Origin: Gemmatimonadaceae bacterium
GTDB lineage: Bacteria > Gemmatimonadota > Gemmatimonadetes > Gemmatimonadales > Gemmatimonadaceae
Length of the DNA: 64,000 nucleotides
NCBI GenBank assembly: GCA_025928185.1
Contig: JAICKA010000001.1
Location: forward strand, 124,001 to 188,000
Direction: 5' to 3'
The translations under genes and the position numbers were made by a program. Position 1 is the stretch's first letter. Each line of letters starts with the position of its first letter. The notes below the pieces were generated by a model that searched no databases, was not told the origin of the DNA, and worked only from the letters and a program-made list of their open reading frames with translations. Shown in pieces: positions 3,115 through 47,044 of the stretch.

Positions 3115-3130
3115 GTATGAAGCGTATCCT

Positions 3131-3160
3131 GGTCCATGGTCCATGGTCCATGGTCCATGG
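3131..3160. repeat. 7-bp tandem repeat (GGTCCAT)x4
   Basis: Four perfect copies of GGTCCAT followed by GG fill 30 bases between the divergent ackA and phosphoketolase genes. The complementary unit GGACCAT/GGACCAC occurs in at least seven other intergenic places in the window, so this is one site of a dispersed family. Its position between two divergent starts means that changes in copy number would alter promoter spacing. Confidence 0.9.
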
Positions 3161-3204
3161 TGCAGCTGCCAGACGTCACCGTGTAGTCCCCAGTCCTCGC
3201 AAGC

Positions 3205-5652: not shown

Positions 5653-5656
5653 GACT

Positions 5657-6099
5657 GGTCCAGGGTCCATGGTCCAGGGTCCATGGTGGACCGTGAAAGG
5701 GCGAGATCGGGCTGCCTGAGAACTCAGATACTCACCTCCCTCTTCCCCGAGGTGGCATCACACCCGTGAAAGCCGGACCAGTTTCGAGAACTCAGATCCG
5801 AGACTGCAGACGTGAGCCTACTACGCAATCCTACTGGCTGGACGGTGCAACAGTCGTCAGACGCGAGACGCGAGATGGGCGGCTGTCGTCTGCGCTCTCG
5901 CATCTGTTGCACCCTCGACGCGGGCCGGATTGAGTGTCGGGCTGACGTCTGAGGTCTCGGAGTCTGGCGTCTCGAAACTGGTCCGGCTTTCCCGGCCGCG
6001 ATGCCACCTCGGCAAAGAGGGAAATGAGTATCTGACGTCTGAACCAGCCCGACCTCGACCTCTCACGTCTTCGGCTCACGGACCACGGACCACGGACCC
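5657..6099. repeat. Giant imperfect palindrome with 7-bp repeat ends
   Basis: This gene-free stretch is one ~443-bp inverted repeat. Its left end is GGTCCAG/GGTCCAT x4 (5657-5686) and its right end is (CACGGAC)x3 (6077-6097), the inverted counterpart. Inside, arms at about 5691-5822 and 5933-6067 pair imperfectly; shared words include GCCGGACCAGTTTCGAGA and GAGGTGGCATC. A nested inner dyad pairs GGTGCAACAG (5844-5853) with CTGTTGCACC (5904-5913). Short words of the type CAGACGTC/GAACTCAGA recur within the arms. Small open frames in it look random. It could act as a bidirectional terminator between phosphoketolase and the minus-strand operon, a structured RNA, or a miniature mobile element. 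Confidence 0.8.
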
Positions 6100-12364: not shown

Positions 12365-13507
12365 ATGACCGATTCCGTTCGCGACCTGCCGGACGCCGAG
12401 CATCCACTCGAGTCGGTGCGGACGCGACGACGCTTTCTGCTCGAGGCGTCGCTCGCCACGGCGCTCGCCGCGTGCGGCCGGCCGGAGCAGCGCGGCGGCG
12501 GGGAGCACAAGGAGGGCGCCGAAGCGCGCGGCCGTGGCGCACCGCAGGCGAACGTCCATCAATCGCGAACCGGTGATCGCAATCCGGACAGCCAGATCGA
12601 CACGACCTTGCATCACGCGATGCCGTCGTCGTCCGCCGTCGACACGACGACGACGGCGTCGAATGTCCAGTTCCATCGCTACGATCCCGCGCTGCCGCCG
12701 GTGTCCGCCGAGCGCACGACGCGACTGCACTTCACGTCGCGCGACGCCAACATCCGCGTCAATGAGGACACTGTGATCGCCGCCTGGACGTTCGAGGGCG
12801 ACGTGCCGGGACCGATCGTCCACGTCCGGCAGGGCGACACGATCGAGTTCACCCTCACCAATCACGGCCGCATCCCGCATTCGATGGACTTTCACGCCGC
12901 GCAGATCAATCCCAAGACGGCGTTCCGCTCGATCATGCCGGGGGAGTCGCTCTCCTTCACCTTTTCGCCGAAGTACGCCGGCGTCTATCTCTATCACTGC
13001 GGCACGGCGCCGGTGCTCATGCACCTGGGTTCGGGCATGTTCGGCGCGCTCGTCGTCGATCCGCCAACGCCGCTACGCAAGGCGAAAGAGTTCGTGCTCG
13101 TACAGAACGAGTATTACCTCGGCGGCGCGCAGAACGGCATTGCACCGCTCGACTATACGAAGATGCTCGTGACGCTGCCGGATCTGTTCGCATTCAACGG
13201 CCGCCCTGGCCAGTACGACGCCGCGCCGATTCACGTCAAGCAGGGCGACCTCGTGCGCTTCTACATCGCGAACGCCGGCCCAACGCATTCCTGCGCCTTC
13301 CACGTCGTCGGGGAGCAGTTCGACACCGTCTACCTCGGCGCGCCGCCGGCCAACGCGATCCACGGCGTGCAGACCTTCGATGTGGCCGCGGGCGGCGGCA
13401 TGATCTTCGAGATGCAGGCCGACGTGGCCGGGGAATTCGTATTCGTGAATCACTCGTTCGGTCACGGCCAGAAAGGCGCGATCGGGCGGCTCATTGTTGA
13501 CGCCTGA
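12365..13507 (+). CDS. Copper nitrite reductase-like protein, Tat-exported (copy 1)
   Basis: The 380-residue product has a twin-arginine leader (RTRRRFLLEAS) ending at a Cys near residue 37 (AACG), so a lipoprotein is possible, then a ~60-residue low-complexity linker and two cupredoxin domains. By comparison with NirK, type 1 copper ligands are His172, Cys212, His220 and Met225; type 2 ligands are His177, His211 and His363; the catalytic Asp and His correspond to Asp175 (HSMDFHAA) and His313. So the full active-site set is present and nitrite-to-NO reduction is plausible, though this deep branch also holds uncharacterised oxidases. An GGAG site precedes the ATG. The stop codon lies within an 8-bp repeat array. 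Confidence 0.82.
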   Translation: MTDSVRDLPDAEHPLESVRTRRRFLLEASLATALAACGRPEQRGGGEHKEGAEARGRGAPQANVHQSRTGDRNPDSQIDTTLHHAMPSSSAVDTTTTASNVQFHRYDPALPPVSAERTTRLHFTSRDANIRVNEDTVIAAWTFEGDVPGPIVHVRQGDTIEFTLTNHGRIPHSMDFHAAQINPKTAFRSIMPGESLSFTFSPKYAGVYLYHCGTAPVLMHLGSGMFGALVVDPPTPLRKAKEFVLVQNEYYLGGAQNGIAPLDYTKMLVTLPDLFAFNGRPGQYDAAPIHVKQGDLVRFYIANAGPTHSCAFHVVGEQFDTVYLGAPPANAIHGVQTFDVAAGGGMIFEMQADVAGEFVFVNHSFGHGQKGAIGRLIVDA

Positions 13508-13620
13508 ACGCCTGAACGCCTGAACGCTGGAGCGCTGGAGCGCTGGAGCGCTGGAGCCGCGACCGAGGCGTTCAAGCGCTCAAGCGCTCAAGCGCTCAAG
13601 CGCTCCAGCGTTCCAGCGTC
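13501..13620. repeat. 8-bp periodic repeat array forming a hairpin between convergent genes
   Basis: The order is CGCCTGAA x3, CGCTGGAG x4, a 12-base spacer, CGTTCAAG, CGCTCAAG x3, CGCTCCAG, CGTTCCAG. The right half is the near-reverse-complement of the left, so the transcript folds into a long imperfect stem. The stop codon of the upstream gene is the TGA of the first unit, and the convergent gene ends 3 bases past the array. It is best read as a bidirectional terminator, with a repeat-expansion origin. Confidence 0.8.
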
Positions 13621-13622
13621 TT

Positions 13623-14657
13623 TCAATGCACCATCGTCGCGAACACCTTCGGCGTGCCGACCTGGATCACGCCCACCGCGCCCTTTTCCGCGTCGGCGAA
13701 GCTGTGCGTCACGAACGCGTACAGCCCTTCACCGCTGCCGTCCTTGCTGAACGTCGTCTCGAAGACCGCGCCGCCGCCCGCCGGGACCGTGTACGTCTGA
13801 ATGTCGCTCAGCGCGTGTGACGGATCGCCGTCGGGATACACACGGTCGAAGATCGCGCCGACGATGTGGAAGTCGCTGTTCATCGACGGTCCCGCGTTCA
13901 CGACGTAGAATCGCACCCGATCGCCGACATCCACCTTGAGCGGCGTGGTCTTGTACTGGAACGCACGACCGTTGAACACGACCTCGCTCGGATTCTTCGC
14001 CATCGCGGCCGGCCAGTCCGGCTGCACGAGTGTCGGCGCGCCCGCCTGCGTGCTGTCGCCCGGCTTCGTGTAGAACTCGCTCTGCACGAGCACGAACTCC
14101 TTGTCGGCCTTCGTGCCCCAGCCGTCGCGCGGATCGACGATGATCGGGAAGTACATGCCCTGCATCAGGTGCATGGTGATGGGCGGCGTGCCGCAGTGCA
14201 CGAGAAACGCGCCGGCATCCTTTGCTGTGAACTCGAAGGAGATCGAGTCCTTTGGCATGATCTGACGGTAGGCGACGTTCGCCGGGATGCGCGCCGCGTG
14301 AAAGTCGATCGAATGCGGCATCGCCGTCTCGTTCACGACGCGCACGCGGACGAGATCGCCGACTCGAACGTGAAGCACCGGCCCCGGCACCGTGCCGCCG
14401 AAGGTCCAGCCTTGATACGTCACGCCTTGCGCAATCTGGATCGTGGCGTCCTTGATCGGAATTCTGAATTCCTTGATGCTGGCGCGCGACACCGGCGCGA
14501 GCCGCGCGTCGTAGGCCGGCGACGTCGGGCGCACGACGTGATCGAAGTCGATGCGTTCGATCGTATCGGGTCGCCGCGCGGCCGCCATGACGACTCCACC
14601 AAGGCCGAGCGCGATCGTGATGATGAACGCCGTGGACCAGCGTGAACGGACCGACAT
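13623..14657 (-). CDS. Copper nitrite reductase-like protein (copy 2)
   Basis: A 344-residue secreted protein with an N-terminal hydrophobic signal (FIITIALGLGGVVMA) and two cupredoxin domains. NirK-equivalent residues are all present: type 1 His115, Cys155, His163, Met168; type 2 His120, His154, His318; catalytic Asp118 and His264. It differs from copy 1 by a Sec-type signal and no long linker. The divergent neighbour is the Crp/Fnr-type regulator, and the 178-base gap between them contains a TCAGGG-TTTT-CCCCG site. Two convergent paralogues with complete sites suggest different electron donors or different expression. It could be an NO-forming nitrite reductase or a related multicopper enzyme. 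Confidence 0.82.
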   Translation of the reverse strand: MSVRSRWSTAFIITIALGLGGVVMAAARRPDTIERIDFDHVVRPTSPAYDARLAPVSRASIKEFRIPIKDATIQIAQGVTYQGWTFGGTVPGPVLHVRVGDLVRVRVVNETAMPHSIDFHAARIPANVAYRQIMPKDSISFEFTAKDAGAFLVHCGTPPITMHLMQGMYFPIIVDPRDGWGTKADKEFVLVQSEFYTKPGDSTQAGAPTLVQPDWPAAMAKNPSEVVFNGRAFQYKTTPLKVDVGDRVRFYVVNAGPSMNSDFHIVGAIFDRVYPDGDPSHALSDIQTYTVPAGGGAVFETTFSKDGSGEGLYAFVTHSFADAEKGAVGVIQVGTPKVFATMVH

Positions 14658-19842: not shown

Positions 19843-20002
19843 GAGAGAGGAGAGTGGAGAGAGGAGAGTGGAGAGAACTACCGAGATTTCGGGTGCGAGT
19901 TACCAGAACTCAGAGAAGAGTAGCCATGAAGCCCAGCGCGTTCCCCCGCGCACCATGGACCTGGACAACGGACCATGGACGATAGACCACGGACCAGAAA
20001 CC
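19843..20002. repeat. 14-bp tandem repeat plus degenerate 7-bp repeat tract
   Basis: GAGAGAGGAGAGTG occurs twice and a half at 19843-19878, directly at the 5' end of the thioesterase gene. Then AGAACTCAGAG (words also found in the 5.7-kb palindrome) leads to a tract with 7-base period at about 19952-20002 (ACCATGG, ACAACGG, ACCATGG, ACGATAG, ACCACGG). The tract belongs to the GGACCAY family. Confidence 0.7.
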
Positions 20003-36499: not shown

Positions 36500-38062
36500 C
36501 TAATCGATCGCGATCTCCATGTCGGCGCTCGGCGTGCCCCGGCGCAGCAGGAACACGAGCGGGAAGCCGATGAAGAACAGCGATGCAACGAACACGAACA
36601 CATGATTGTACGCGAGCACGGCCGCCTGCTTGCCGATCAGCCCATCGATGATGCGCATCGCCTGCTCCTTGGCGGTGAACGCGTCGGCGCCCTTGGCCAT
36701 CATGCCGCCGGTGATCTGCTGGAGCAACTGCCGCGCGTGACCCGATGCGCCCGCGTCCTCCGAGAGAATGGCGTGGTAGCGCACGGTACTCGACACGAGC
36801 ATCGTCGCGGAAATGGCGATGCCGACGCTGCCCATCACCTGGCGCACGACGTTGTACAGACCGGTGGCCGCCGTCATGCGCGGCTTGGAGATCGTCGACA
36901 ACGCCGCCGTGCTCAACGAGACGAAGATCAGGCTGAAGCCCACACCCTGCCAGAGCTGTGGCCAGAACAGATCCCAGAAGCCGACGACGGTGGTGAGCGT
37001 CGACATCGTGTAGAAGCCATAGCCGGCGACGATCAGGCCGCCGCCGACCATCATGCGCGGCCCGAGTCGGTTGTAGAATCGGCCGGCGATCGGCATCAGC
37101 ACGCCCATCGCAATGCTGCGCGGCAGCATCGTGATGCCCGATTGCATGGCGTTGAAGCCAAGCAGGTTCTGCAGGAAGACTGGCAGGAGAAACAGGCTGC
37201 CGTTGAGCGCCAGCCCAAGCACGCCGCCGAGCGCGGTGGCCGAGCTGAACGACATGTTCTTGAGAATTCTCAGATTGACCGCCGGCTTCTCGGCCCTGAG
37301 CTCGCGCCAGATGAAAAGGAGCAGCCCGACGGCCGCGATCACCGCCAGCTTCATGACGTAGGTCGACTGGAACCAGTCGTTCTTCTGCCCGTCCTCGAGC
37401 ATGAGTTGCAGCGCGCCAAGCCCGACGACGAGCAAACCCAGCCCGGGCCAGTCGATGTAGCCTTTCTCGCGGACGAGGTAGTGCGGATCCTCGATGAACC
37501 GCTGCACGAGCATCAGGTTCAGCATGCCAATCGGCACGTTGATGAAGAAGATCCACGGCCACGAATACTGATCGGTGATCCAGCCGCCGAGCGTCGGGCC
37601 GAACGCCGGCGCGAGCACCGCGCCGAGTCCATAGAGGCCCATCGCGATGCCCTGCTCTTCCGCCGGAAAGCTCTCGCGCAGAATCGCCTGGGAGACGGTG
37701 AGCAGCACGCCGCCGCCAAAGCCCTGAATGACGCGGAAGATGACCATCGTGCCGAGACTGCCGGACAGTCCGCACGCCATCGAGGCGCCGGTGAACAGCA
37801 CGACGCTCGTCATGTAGAAGCGCTTGCGACCGAATCGCGCCGAGAGCAGACCGGTGATCGGCATGACGATCACCTGCGCGAGGATGTACGACGTCACGAC
37901 CCACGTGATCTCTTCGATCGTGACGCCGAGCGTGCCGGACATGTCCGGCAGCGCGACGTTGACGATGCTCGAGTCGAGCACGGCCATGATCGTGCCGGTG
38001 AGCACGGTACAGGCGATGATCCACTTGTGATTGGCGCCGTGCTGCGCGGTGGGCGCGGTCAT
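36500..38062 (-). CDS. DHA2-family (EmrB/QacA) drug efflux transporter
   Basis: The 520-residue protein has 14 predicted helices. Motif D1 LDSSIVNVALPDM in helix 1, the loop GLLSARFGRKRFYM after helix 2, and motif C-like GAVLAPAFGPTLGGWI in helix 5 identify the proton-driven DHA2 family. Its ATG overlaps the TetR stop (ATGA), so it is under control of that repressor. There is no adjacent membrane-fusion gene of the EmrA type, so it may act alone or with a distant partner. The substrate is unknown. Confidence 0.94.
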   Translation of the reverse strand: MTAPTAQHGANHKWIIACTVLTGTIMAVLDSSIVNVALPDMSGTLGVTIEEITWVVTSYILAQVIVMPITGLLSARFGRKRFYMTSVVLFTGASMACGLSGSLGTMVIFRVIQGFGGGVLLTVSQAILRESFPAEEQGIAMGLYGLGAVLAPAFGPTLGGWITDQYSWPWIFFINVPIGMLNLMLVQRFIEDPHYLVREKGYIDWPGLGLLVVGLGALQLMLEDGQKNDWFQSTYVMKLAVIAAVGLLLFIWRELRAEKPAVNLRILKNMSFSSATALGGVLGLALNGSLFLLPVFLQNLLGFNAMQSGITMLPRSIAMGVLMPIAGRFYNRLGPRMMVGGGLIVAGYGFYTMSTLTTVVGFWDLFWPQLWQGVGFSLIFVSLSTAALSTISKPRMTAATGLYNVVRQVMGSVGIAISATMLVSSTVRYHAILSEDAGASGHARQLLQQITGGMMAKGADAFTAKEQAMRIIDGLIGKQAAVLAYNHVFVFVASLFFIGFPLVFLLRRGTPSADMEIAID

Positions 38063-38700
38063 GTCGAAGCAGCCGGTTGCAATCCGGCGAGACACAGATC
38101 GATCGCCGACTGGATCAGCCGGCGATGGCCGATGCGGATGCCGGGAACGTCGCCGGCGTGGTACTGCCAGACGAGCTGCGTGACGAGGCCGGACACGAGC
38201 AGGCGCGCCGCGACTTCGCTGTCCGCATCGGCGCGGAACTCACCGGACTTCTTTCCGTCCTCGATGATTGCGGCAATGAGACGCCACGCTTTCATCGGAC
38301 CGGTCGCGAGCCATTCGCGGTAGACCTCGGGCACGGCGTGCGCCAGGCCATTGAGGAGCAGCAGGACGTCGCGCCGTGCGTCGTCGTTGCCGCTGAACGC
38401 GCTCTCGACCATGCGGCGCAGACGCGCGGACGCCGGTCCGCGCTCGCCGCGCATCGCCTCCTCCATGCGACCGAACGCCCGCGCCTGATAGTGTTGAATG
38501 GCGCGCAGCAGCAGCTCTTCCTTGTTCTCGAAATAGTGATAGAGCGCGCCCTTCGTCACGCCGGCCTCGGCCGCGACTTCCTCGAGCCGAGTGTTCCGGT
38601 ACCCCCGCGTGGCGAACACACGCAACGCGGCGTCGAGCAACTCCTGCGGCCGAGCCTCGGGCCGCCGCTCCCATTTCAGTGTGCGTTTGGTGGAGCTCAT
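38059..38700 (-). CDS. TetR-family repressor
   Basis: A 213-residue regulator with the N-terminal helix-turn-helix (AALRVFATRGYRNTRLEEVAAEAGVTKGALYHYFENKEELL) and a ligand-binding C-terminal part (TetR_C-like, ~80-205). It is the first gene of the efflux operon and overlaps the transporter start. A strong 26-bp dyad lies 10 bases before its ATG, so it almost surely represses its own operon until the exported compound binds. Confidence 0.95.
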   Translation of the reverse strand: MSSTKRTLKWERRPEARPQELLDAALRVFATRGYRNTRLEEVAAEAGVTKGALYHYFENKEELLLRAIQHYQARAFGRMEEAMRGERGPASARLRRMVESAFSGNDDARRDVLLLLNGLAHAVPEVYREWLATGPMKAWRLIAAIIEDGKKSGEFRADADSEVAARLLVSGLVTQLVWQYHAGDVPGIRIGHRRLIQSAIDLCLAGLQPAAST

Positions 38701-38765: not shown

Positions 38766-39347
38766 CGGGTCATCCATGGTCCGTCGAGGTCGTCGCGCGG
38801 GGTGAGTGGCGTGCGCCGAATCGGGTTGGACTGAGTGCGGGACGCGGATTTGGCGGAAACCGGCGGACGAGGCGCGAATTCGGCCCCGGCGGCGCGAGAG
38901 ACCATCGCACCATAGAGACGGCAAATCCGGCTACACCGGCGACCTCGCAGCGAGAGGAAAGGGGCTGCGGAGCACTGCGGAGCACGGCGGAGCACTGCGG
39001 AGAGGCGCGGAGGGGCGTTGCTGGAGTGTTGATGAATGAAGCCCGCTCAGTCGTTCTCCGCGGTTCTCCGCGGTTCTCCGCGGCTTCGCGACGCTCTGCA
39101 TTGAAATGATGCGGGTCCAGCCGCAACAGGTGGAACACCGATGACACGGAAAGGACGAATTGAACGAATAGAAAAACCAAATGCTCTTTTGAGGTGTGGC
39201 GCGACGGACTCGGCGCGCCAGTAGCCGCCAGTCCTTGCCTCGTCCGCCAGTTTCCGCAAAATCCGCGTCCACCAATTCAGTCCAACCCGATTCGGCGCAC
39301 CACACTCGACCCGCGCGACCGCCACGGACTACGAACTACGGACCACC
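38766..39347. repeat. Giant imperfect palindromic element (~580 bp) with heptamer ends
   Basis: The outer arms pair ~38766-38890 with ~39225-39345: the left arm contains GTGCGCCGAATCGGGTTGG and GGCGGACGAGGC, and the right arm contains their complements (39283-39302 region and CGTCCGCC at 39241). The left end has CCATGGTCCGTCGAGG, the right end CCACGGACTACGAACTACGG (7-base period). Inside, GCGGAG-C-ACT units (38969-39010) face CTCCGCGGTT units (39055-39085). The right inner part (39052-39230) is repeated at 45742-45906. Open frames within it encode Arg/Ala-rich repeats and look non-genic. Confidence 0.8.
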
Positions 39348-39857
39348 TCACGCCGTCGCTGCTGCCCCAGCCGTCTTGCGACGCATCGCGAGATTCCCCA
39401 ACCCGAGCAGCACCGCGATTCCGATCACGATCCACGTCGCGCCGTCGCCCCAGTGCGGCGCGGTGCCGAGTGCGGCATCCAGCGACCACGCGCCAAAGCC
39501 CTCGAACGCGAACAGCAGTGCGGCCGCGATGTTCGTCAGCGGCAGCTCGTAGCCGTTGGCGGTGTTGAAGAATCCATTCGGCCAGTGCACCGAGCCGATC
39601 GCCACGATCATCACGACGATCAATAGTGCCGGGCCGATCGGGCCGAAGAGGCCGAGTGCGATCAGCAGTCCGCCGAGGAGCTCGCCGCAGCCGGCGAGAA
39701 ACGCGAAGACGTGGCCGGGCCGATAGCCGAGCGTCTCCATGTATCCGCCCGTGCCGCGAACGCCGTAGCCGCCGAACCAGCCGAACAACTTCTGCGCACC
39801 GTGCGCCGCAACTCCCAGCCCGACGATCAACCGTGCGATTAACAGTGCAATGGCCAT
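39348..39857 (-). CDS. DoxX-family membrane protein
   Basis: The 169-residue, four-helix protein has the DoxX pattern: IARLIVGLGVAAHGAQKLFGWFGGYG in helix 1, GCGELLGGLLIALG in helix 2, IVAIGSVHWPNGFFNTANGYELPL and a C-terminal helix. DoxX proteins are linked to redox balance or quinol-related functions, without a settled role. The stop codon lies directly at the end of the 580-bp palindromic element. It may be transcribed with the two small membrane proteins upstream (36-base gap). Confidence 0.92.
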   Translation of the reverse strand: MAIALLIARLIVGLGVAAHGAQKLFGWFGGYGVRGTGGYMETLGYRPGHVFAFLAGCGELLGGLLIALGLFGPIGPALLIVVMIVAIGSVHWPNGFFNTANGYELPLTNIAAALLFAFEGFGAWSLDAALGTAPHWGDGATWIVIGIAVLLGLGNLAMRRKTAGAAATA

Positions 39858-45578: not shown

Positions 45579-45741
45579 TCCGCGGGCCGTGCAAACCGTT
45601 GGGCTCTCGAGGCGCGAGGGGGTATCGCGCCTGATGAACAACCATCGAGCCGCGCGTGATGCACGAACGTCTCGATGCTTTCGGAAGTGCCATCGCTGAT
45701 CGGCGGTTGGTTCTCGACCCCTCGCAATTCAACTTCAAGCC

Positions 45742-45943
45742 GTCTCCGCTGTTCTCCGCCATTCTCCGCGACTTCGCGACACTTTCCCAGGCAATGATGC
45801 TGACCCAGCCGCAACGGGTTGAACTGCGATGACACGGATGGGACGAATGGAACGGATGAAAAACCAAAGGCTTTGTGGGTGTGGCGCGAGAGACTCGGCG
45901 CGCCAGACCAGCACCGGGCGACGACCATGGAACACGGACGATC
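45742..45943. repeat. Second copy of the intergenic repeat at 39.05-39.23 kb
   Basis: Bases 45742-45906 resemble 39052-39230 on the same strand: shared blocks are CCGCGNNTTCGCGAC, GATGACACGGA, GGACGAAT, AAAAACCAAA and ACTCGGCGCGCCAG. It ends, like the first copy, with a 7-base-period tract (CGACCATGGAACACGGACG, 45921-45940) touching the 3' end of the next gene. The left part of the palindrome is missing, so this is a truncated copy. The rest of 45443-45741 holds the SulP promoter region. Confidence 0.75.
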
Positions 45944-46863: not shown

Positions 46864-47020
46864 GAAGTTCTCCCTGACCGGCCAGAGCAGAGGAAATAAC
46901 AATGCCATGGCGTCCTGAGCCGACGGGCCGGCGCTTCCCGGCCCGGCTTTCTTTCCGCTGAAGCCTCGGGTCCCGGCGCCTCGTGACGGGCCGCTGACGA
47001 CTGGCAACTGACACCCGAAG

Positions 47021-47044
47021 ACGGACCACGGACCACGGACCATG
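47021..47044. repeat. 7-bp repeat (ACGGACC)x3 touching a start codon
   Basis: Three perfect units at 47021-47041 end in ACC-ATG, so the start codon of the aldo/keto reductase is part of the GGACCATG repeat unit. No ribosome site lies in the repeat, so translation start there is unusual. Confidence 0.8.

Follow-up and report, generated by a model that had tools for sequence, protein, structure and literature searches.

What is a giant palindrome doing between two protein genes of a Gemmatimonadaceae genome, and did it arise there or arrive from elsewhere? The element (38766..39347, strandless, ~580 bp) lies in the window, by which we mean the whole stretch of 64,000 nucleotides that was analyzed, and it is intergenic: on one side is a gene that, by eye, we take to encode a TetR-type regulator (38059..38700, minus strand) and on the other what is, likewise by eye, presumably a DoxX-type membrane protein gene (39348..39857, minus strand). 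An earlier note on this DNA had claimed a palindrome of this size, and the alignment bears it out: the arms (38768-38893 and 39224-39347) are reverse complements with 100 identities in 131 columns (76%), scoring 67.5 where 500 shuffles reach at most 24.5, and they include gap-free stretches, one of 50 nt matching at 86%, another of 34 nt at 94%. Comparing the window with itself likewise gave a continuous inverted match (88% across 83 columns, E 6.7e-22).

Read along the plus strand, the element begins with a left end (38773..38787) of heptamer-like TCCATGG/TCCGTCG units, which have period 7 in the family consensus, followed by the left arm (38788..38893), of a type that also bounds two GxxExxY genes discussed below (loci L118 and L100). 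Inside lie a left decamer array, CTGCGGAGCA (38965..39002), a right decamer array that faces it, GTTCTCCGCG (39053..39083), and a decayed period-9 array (39133..39181) that reads GAACACCGATGACACGGATGGGACGGATCGAACGGAT in the family consensus and is of a type found at the ends of GxxExxY elements in other phyla. The right arm (39224..39320), the reverse complement of the left, and a right end (39321..39347) of CCACGGA/CTACGGA heptamers, in inverse orientation to those of the left end, complete the element. The heptamer-like tracts outside the arms (left TCCATGGTCCGTCG, right CCACGGACTACGAACTACGGACCAC) and the facing units inside them had both been described in the note, and both are present, the inside units being the decamer arrays. 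In the consensus, the two ends have lag-7 identities of 0.69 and 0.77 and the two inner arrays period-10 identities of 0.77 and 0.86, while one inner stretch has period 9 (identity 0.54).

A dispersed family of palindromes

A search of the source genome (G000, 3.7 Mb in 288 contigs) with the window element gave at least 153 matches, grouped into 40 places, and a fuller family copy used as query added 8 more; the element's sequence thus occurs at ~48 places among the matches listed, an approximate figure in that some places abut the end of a contig, where a single copy may have been counted twice, once for each half. The flanks are unrelated from copy to copy. The nearest relative of the window copy is on the same contig, 28 kb off and 93% identical, and most other copies are 73-86% identical to it; because one pair is 93% identical, we read the spread as recent. 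The family consensus (29 copies) is ~760 bp between its ends, so the window copy is a shortened one; internal deletions are frequent and truncated copies are present. The window itself holds a second, partial copy (45596..45943, plus strand) that covers consensus 398-500, a part that goes back to a GxxExxY gene start. Within the 70 bp beyond the left arm, 10 of 27 copies have two or more TCCRYSG units, and beyond the right arm 18 of 36 have two matching heptamer units (against ~1.5% of random 70-mers); four copies have heptamer units outside both arms. Among 40 genomes searched, four, its own included, had a family match and 36 had none; the same-genus genome G001 has one family copy and G005 has diverged arms.

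The note had further held that the layout, not the sequence, is conserved. This stands for the comparison that it made, between the window palindrome and a 5.7-kb palindrome (5656..6098, strandless), which belongs to another family with the same heptamer type at its ends and has, as the note had said of the arms, no match to the window element except the heptamers. It does not stand within the window element's own family, where one sequence recurs at the ~48 places. Of the 5.7-kb family, the genome has three complete copies (C134, C1:647-1059 and C249:6969-7381), ~87% identical.

Other short-repeat structures were seen in passing. Lone heptamer arrays at window positions 3128-3164, 19952-19996 and 47020-47044 (TGGTCCA, ACCATGG and ACGGACC types) resemble palindrome ends, and a 1.45-kb region (12872-14321), a 63% match to its own reverse complement, contains three octamer arrays (ACGCCTGA, CGCTGGAG and GCGCTCAA). 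Three loci of other Gemmatimonadota (L077, L080, L086) have ~80-bp hairpins built from CACGCGGAG-type units, which look like the smallest form of this class of palindrome.

Genes between inverted repeats

The family arms also bound a GxxExxY gene (PF13366/TIGR04256), both in the source genome (L118) and in G005, of the same genus (L100; 1876-2322, minus strand; TIGR04256 108.5 bits against a cut-off of 35). The L118 region scores 114.8 bits in a PF13366 profile search (curated cut-off 22), and its arms form an inverted repeat of 80% over 70 bp and match the family consensus at 88% (E 3.6e-26). Both genes adjoin what we presume to be a methionine aminopeptidase gene. Four PF13366 matches were found in the source genome (L117 to L120). 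L119 starts within family sequence (consensus 305-482 at 73%, E 2.7e-25), and with the decamers left out, consensus 375-500 matches the start of this gene at 72% over 102 columns (E 2e-13); L117 and L120 (broken gene) are, by eye, surrounded by short repeats of other kinds, with an inverted-repeat score of 27 at L117. Among the matches listed the genome thus holds ~48 palindromes, yet only one complete gene with family arms. A decayed GxxExxY gene start scores above its own shuffles in 15 of 29 aligned copies; in the remaining 14, which include the window copy, it does not. Because the same arms bound GxxExxY genes and this remnant is present in 15 of 29 copies, the family palindromes look like internally deleted, gene-less derivatives of GxxExxY elements.

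What the gene encodes can be approached through its predicted structure (mean pLDDT 92.8), whose best match among solved folds is SSO0001 (4ic1; E 2.1e-4, TM 0.54), which we take to be a Cas4-type nuclease; tRNA splicing endonuclease and lambda-type exonucleases are weaker fold matches, and no sequence relative with a solved structure was found at E up to 1. Across 35 proteins, residues E35, D74, E84, K86 and Q98 (L118 numbering) do not vary. With conserved acidic and lysine residues and a nuclease-type fold in the model, the protein classifies as PD-(D/E)XK type by prediction and is likely to be a metal-dependent nuclease.

The association of this gene with inverted repeats is general. Four GxxExxY proteins compared with 84,980 species genomes gave 508 relatives; the best 80 were kept, so that the sample leans to the query, and by record title they come from Bacteroidota, Chloroflexi, Planctomycetes, Ignavibacteria, Acidobacteria and other groups. 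Two of the 80 loci were left out for too short a flank. With a local score of at least 30 within 500 bp taken as an inverted repeat, such repeats bound 61 of the remaining 78 genes (from the best 80 of 508) against 4 of 261 shifted intervals. When 30 Gemmatimonadota loci were added, 17 of them with inverted repeats, the count became 78 of 108 GxxExxY genes against 11 of 327 other ORFs of the same loci (Fisher 1.7e-48); at 30 of the 108 genes no such repeat was found, 13 of these being among the 30 Gemmatimonadota loci. The arms are alike across phyla, with AATAGAAC followed by ACGGAT-like units every ~9 bases, and 9 is the best period in 94 of 156 arms; the period-9 stretch of the window-family consensus is of this kind. 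A phage origin was considered and rejected, no GxxExxY relative having been found in viral contigs. At a Flavobacterium odoriferum locus (L126), a 110-bp AT-rich palindrome with GGAACACAGATT ends (2829-2937) immediately precedes the GxxExxY gene, and its right end occurs twice downstream of that gene.

A parallel class is formed by 23S-IVP/four-helix-bundle genes (PF05635), which were found in 80 of 98 genomes searched, with up to 14 per genome. Thirty loci were taken and one (L320) was dropped at a contig edge; with gene positions from tblastn, 26 of the 29 genes have inverted-repeat bounds against 1 of 25 control intervals. The arms are mostly heptamer arrays, different ones at different loci, with a best period of 7 or 14 in 42 of 50. 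Plasmid genes (11 cyanobacterial and 1 from Azospirillum, from 12 of 42 records with a match) are bounded likewise in 10 of 12 cases, against 0 of 24 controls. Where annotated, these plasmid loci adjoin protein genes such as cas, nrd and traM, not rRNA, and several of the genes are within operons (cas6/cas4, cas10/cmr3, nrdB/nrdA).

Matching sites with and without the insert can be compared on these plasmids. The TraM site is empty on two plasmids of Nostoc C057, carries the gene with heptamers in C052 and CCNP1411, and on plasmid pNsp_c of Nostoc sp. ATCC 53789 (L357) has a gene-less pair of related heptamer arrays, inversely oriented. Calothrix NIES-4105 has an empty nrd site, and the cas site of Dolichospermum UHCC 0315A lacks the gene and has another insert. 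At three loci on cyanobacterial plasmids, four-helix-bundle genes sit inside CRISPR-cas operons (L342, L348 and L350; cas6/cas4 twice and cas10/cmr3).

The heptamer ends of the window family resemble the ends of these IVP elements, and we read the window element as a gene-less composite, with arms and inside of GxxExxY type and ends of IVP type. CCGTGGT arrays were at none of the 3 IVP loci read, of 6 in the source genome. The window element is not itself an insertion in a 23S rRNA helix: it sits between two protein genes, and Rfam gave no match at gathering score anywhere in the 64-kb window, rRNA included.

Proposed movement of the palindromes

Taken together, we think it probable that the palindrome is a non-autonomous, dispersed element of the mobile type, a gene-less and internally deleted relative of an element that carries a GxxExxY gene, whose nuclease would move the copies. 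The inverted repeat arrays, possibly folded into hairpins or cruciforms, may be what the nuclease recognizes, and it would cut the element; repair or replication would then copy it into new intergenic sites. Copies that bear the gene would move in cis and gene-less palindromes in trans, in the manner supposed for the spread of REPs by TnpA_REP (RAYT). RAYT belongs to the HUH/Y1 proteins; the partner here, unlike it, is a gene of predicted PD-(D/E)XK type (PF13366). Against this reading stand the 30 of 108 GxxExxY genes with no such inverted repeat, the single complete gene with family arms beside ~48 listed palindromes, the missing gene remnant in the window copy, the lack of CCGTGGT arrays at the IVP loci read and, as described below, the lack of target duplication in G086 and the separate occurrence of gene and palindromes in genus g13.

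The main rival would make the GxxExxY and IVP genes “guests” of palindromes that are spread by some other activity, the genes inserting or persisting inside them, either through homing-like insertion into hairpins or as cargo. A second family of palindromes bears on this. In G086, a GxxExxY gene adjoins a gene that we take to be pyrE-like and is flanked by ~170-bp palindromes, which recur at 26 other G086 places among the matches listed and many times in G017, G311, G190, G242 and G143. Palindromes come and go at the pyrE-like site while the gene stays, much as a guest gene would have it: G380 has the gene alone, G017, G311 and G242 have the gene and one palindrome, and G086 has the gene and two, with neither gene nor palindrome in G134. 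The two parts also occur separately in genus g13, where G190 has many palindromes and no PF13366 match and where G134 and G380 have the gene and, among the matches listed, no dispersed palindromes; at five GxxExxY genes (L206, L210, L220, L221, L229), moreover, whole palindromes rather than half-arms stand on both sides. Against guest genes count the decayed gene start in 15 of 29 gene-less copies, the arms common to coding and gene-less forms in two species, and the fact that two unrelated gene families each have an arm period of their own. We hold this rival to be unlikely, and prefer the nuclease-driven element.

Less likely again is that the family are the MITEs of some conventional insertion sequence, whose DDE or HUH transposase would move them in trans. 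The family does have features of a MITE, with dispersed gene-less copies, long inverted ends, and ends in common with a gene-bearing partner (L118, L100). Its heptamer ends mask any target duplication, and the check was made on 14 G086 palindromes with sharp common ends, where no duplication was found (shared word mean 3.3 against 3.4 for mismatched pairs), an absence that would fit a single-strand HUH transposase. The ends, however, are short-repeat arrays, and GxxExxY is the only gene found between family arms among the gene families searched (PF13366/TIGR04256 and PF05635).

The note had proposed that the palindromes form a class with short-repeat ends and insides, which is supported, and that inverted duplication of short-repeat seeds had built them on the spot, which is not. 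Short-repeat units are indeed central to the class: the ends and insides of the family are short tandem repeats, and related genomes have simpler hairpins made of these decamers, both of which in-place duplication would lead one to expect. Its arms would not, however, be one sequence family at ~48 places among the matches listed, and the two arms of a copy should resemble each other most. In 22 copies with both arms, left-right identity is 0.848 within a copy and 0.847 between copies (p = 0.89), with left-left identity at 0.844 and right-right at 0.851. Arms within a copy are no more alike than arms between copies, and the palindrome was therefore preformed in an ancestor and then copied to new places; for the window family, this comparison rules out de novo inverted duplication at each site, and as a general account we give it very little credence.

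It is just as hard to credit a conserved function of the structure, for instance as a bidirectional terminator or a regulatory RNA, which the intergenic position of the window copy and its strong self-complementarity might suggest, given the lack of Rfam matches in the window, the differing flanks, frequent internal deletions and truncated copies, a family match in only 4 of 40 genomes searched (its own included), and a tetR-doxX neighborhood that is not kept in relatives. In G003, G004 and G005 the TetR homologues adjoin the same MFS gene and DoxX is not adjacent, so these genomes offer no orthologous empty site for comparison with the window copy.

Known systems and wider meaning

The closest analogue is the REP/REPIN and RAYT (TnpA_REP) system, in which, as here, a low-copy single gene lies between inverted palindromes and many gene-less palindromes are spread across the genome (PMC8266576, PMC3116915). 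REPs are reported to be 20-40 bp long (PMC3733652); unlike REPs with their GTAG/CGTC-type tag, the window element is ~580 bp and its consensus ~760 bp, with arrays of periods 7, 9 and 10. BrickBuilt, a MITE of Porphyromonas gingivalis, is also similar, being gene-less and intergenic, with inverted ends, internal tandem repeats (a minisatellite) and tens of copies (PMC4596501). The window family differs from BrickBuilt and other bacterial MITEs in its long arms with short-repeat arrays at the ends and inside, in the nuclease-type gene of its relative, and in the absence of target duplication in the 14 G086 copies.

For the IVP elements, the nearest likeness is the 23S intervening sequence of Coxiella burnetii, a small element with one four-helix-bundle gene and inverted ends in which GACAGAT heptamers stand beside S23p, and for which earlier proposals of mobility are cited (PMC4990558). 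The plasmid IVP loci differ in that they lie outside rRNA and mostly have a heptamer array on either side, the two inversely oriented. Intergenic heptamer arrays, often in close inverted pairs, have been described in Xanthomonas and Nostoc in a report that knew of no earlier detailed account of heptamer repeats and saw no general association between them and mobile elements (PMC4692102). Here, by contrast, heptamer arrays bound IVP genes on plasmids of Nostoc and other cyanobacteria. In the literature searched, which mostly did not extend to subscription journals and preprints, GxxExxY received one passing mention in each of two papers, PF13366/PDDEXK_3 was named in one, and among the matches listed there was no report of IVP/S23/four-helix-bundle genes generally lying between inverted heptamer arrays.

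A broader reading, which we put forward tentatively and with rather less confidence than that of the window element, is that GxxExxY and IVP genes may be the engines of two unrecognized classes of very small mobile element, each defined by inverted short-repeat arrays with a period of its own, 9 and 7 bp, respectively; most intergenic short-repeat hairpins, giant palindromes and inverted heptamer pairs would then be their gene-less relatives, and the window element a composite of both. In both classes, we infer that the encoded proteins cause the movement. If true, this would give a testable role to two very common protein families of “function unknown” and a testable origin to a long-noticed puzzle, the short-repeat hairpins and heptamer repeats of bacterial intergenic DNA; small elements that carry a gene of their own may thus explain the source of many of the hairpin and heptamer repeats of bacteria.
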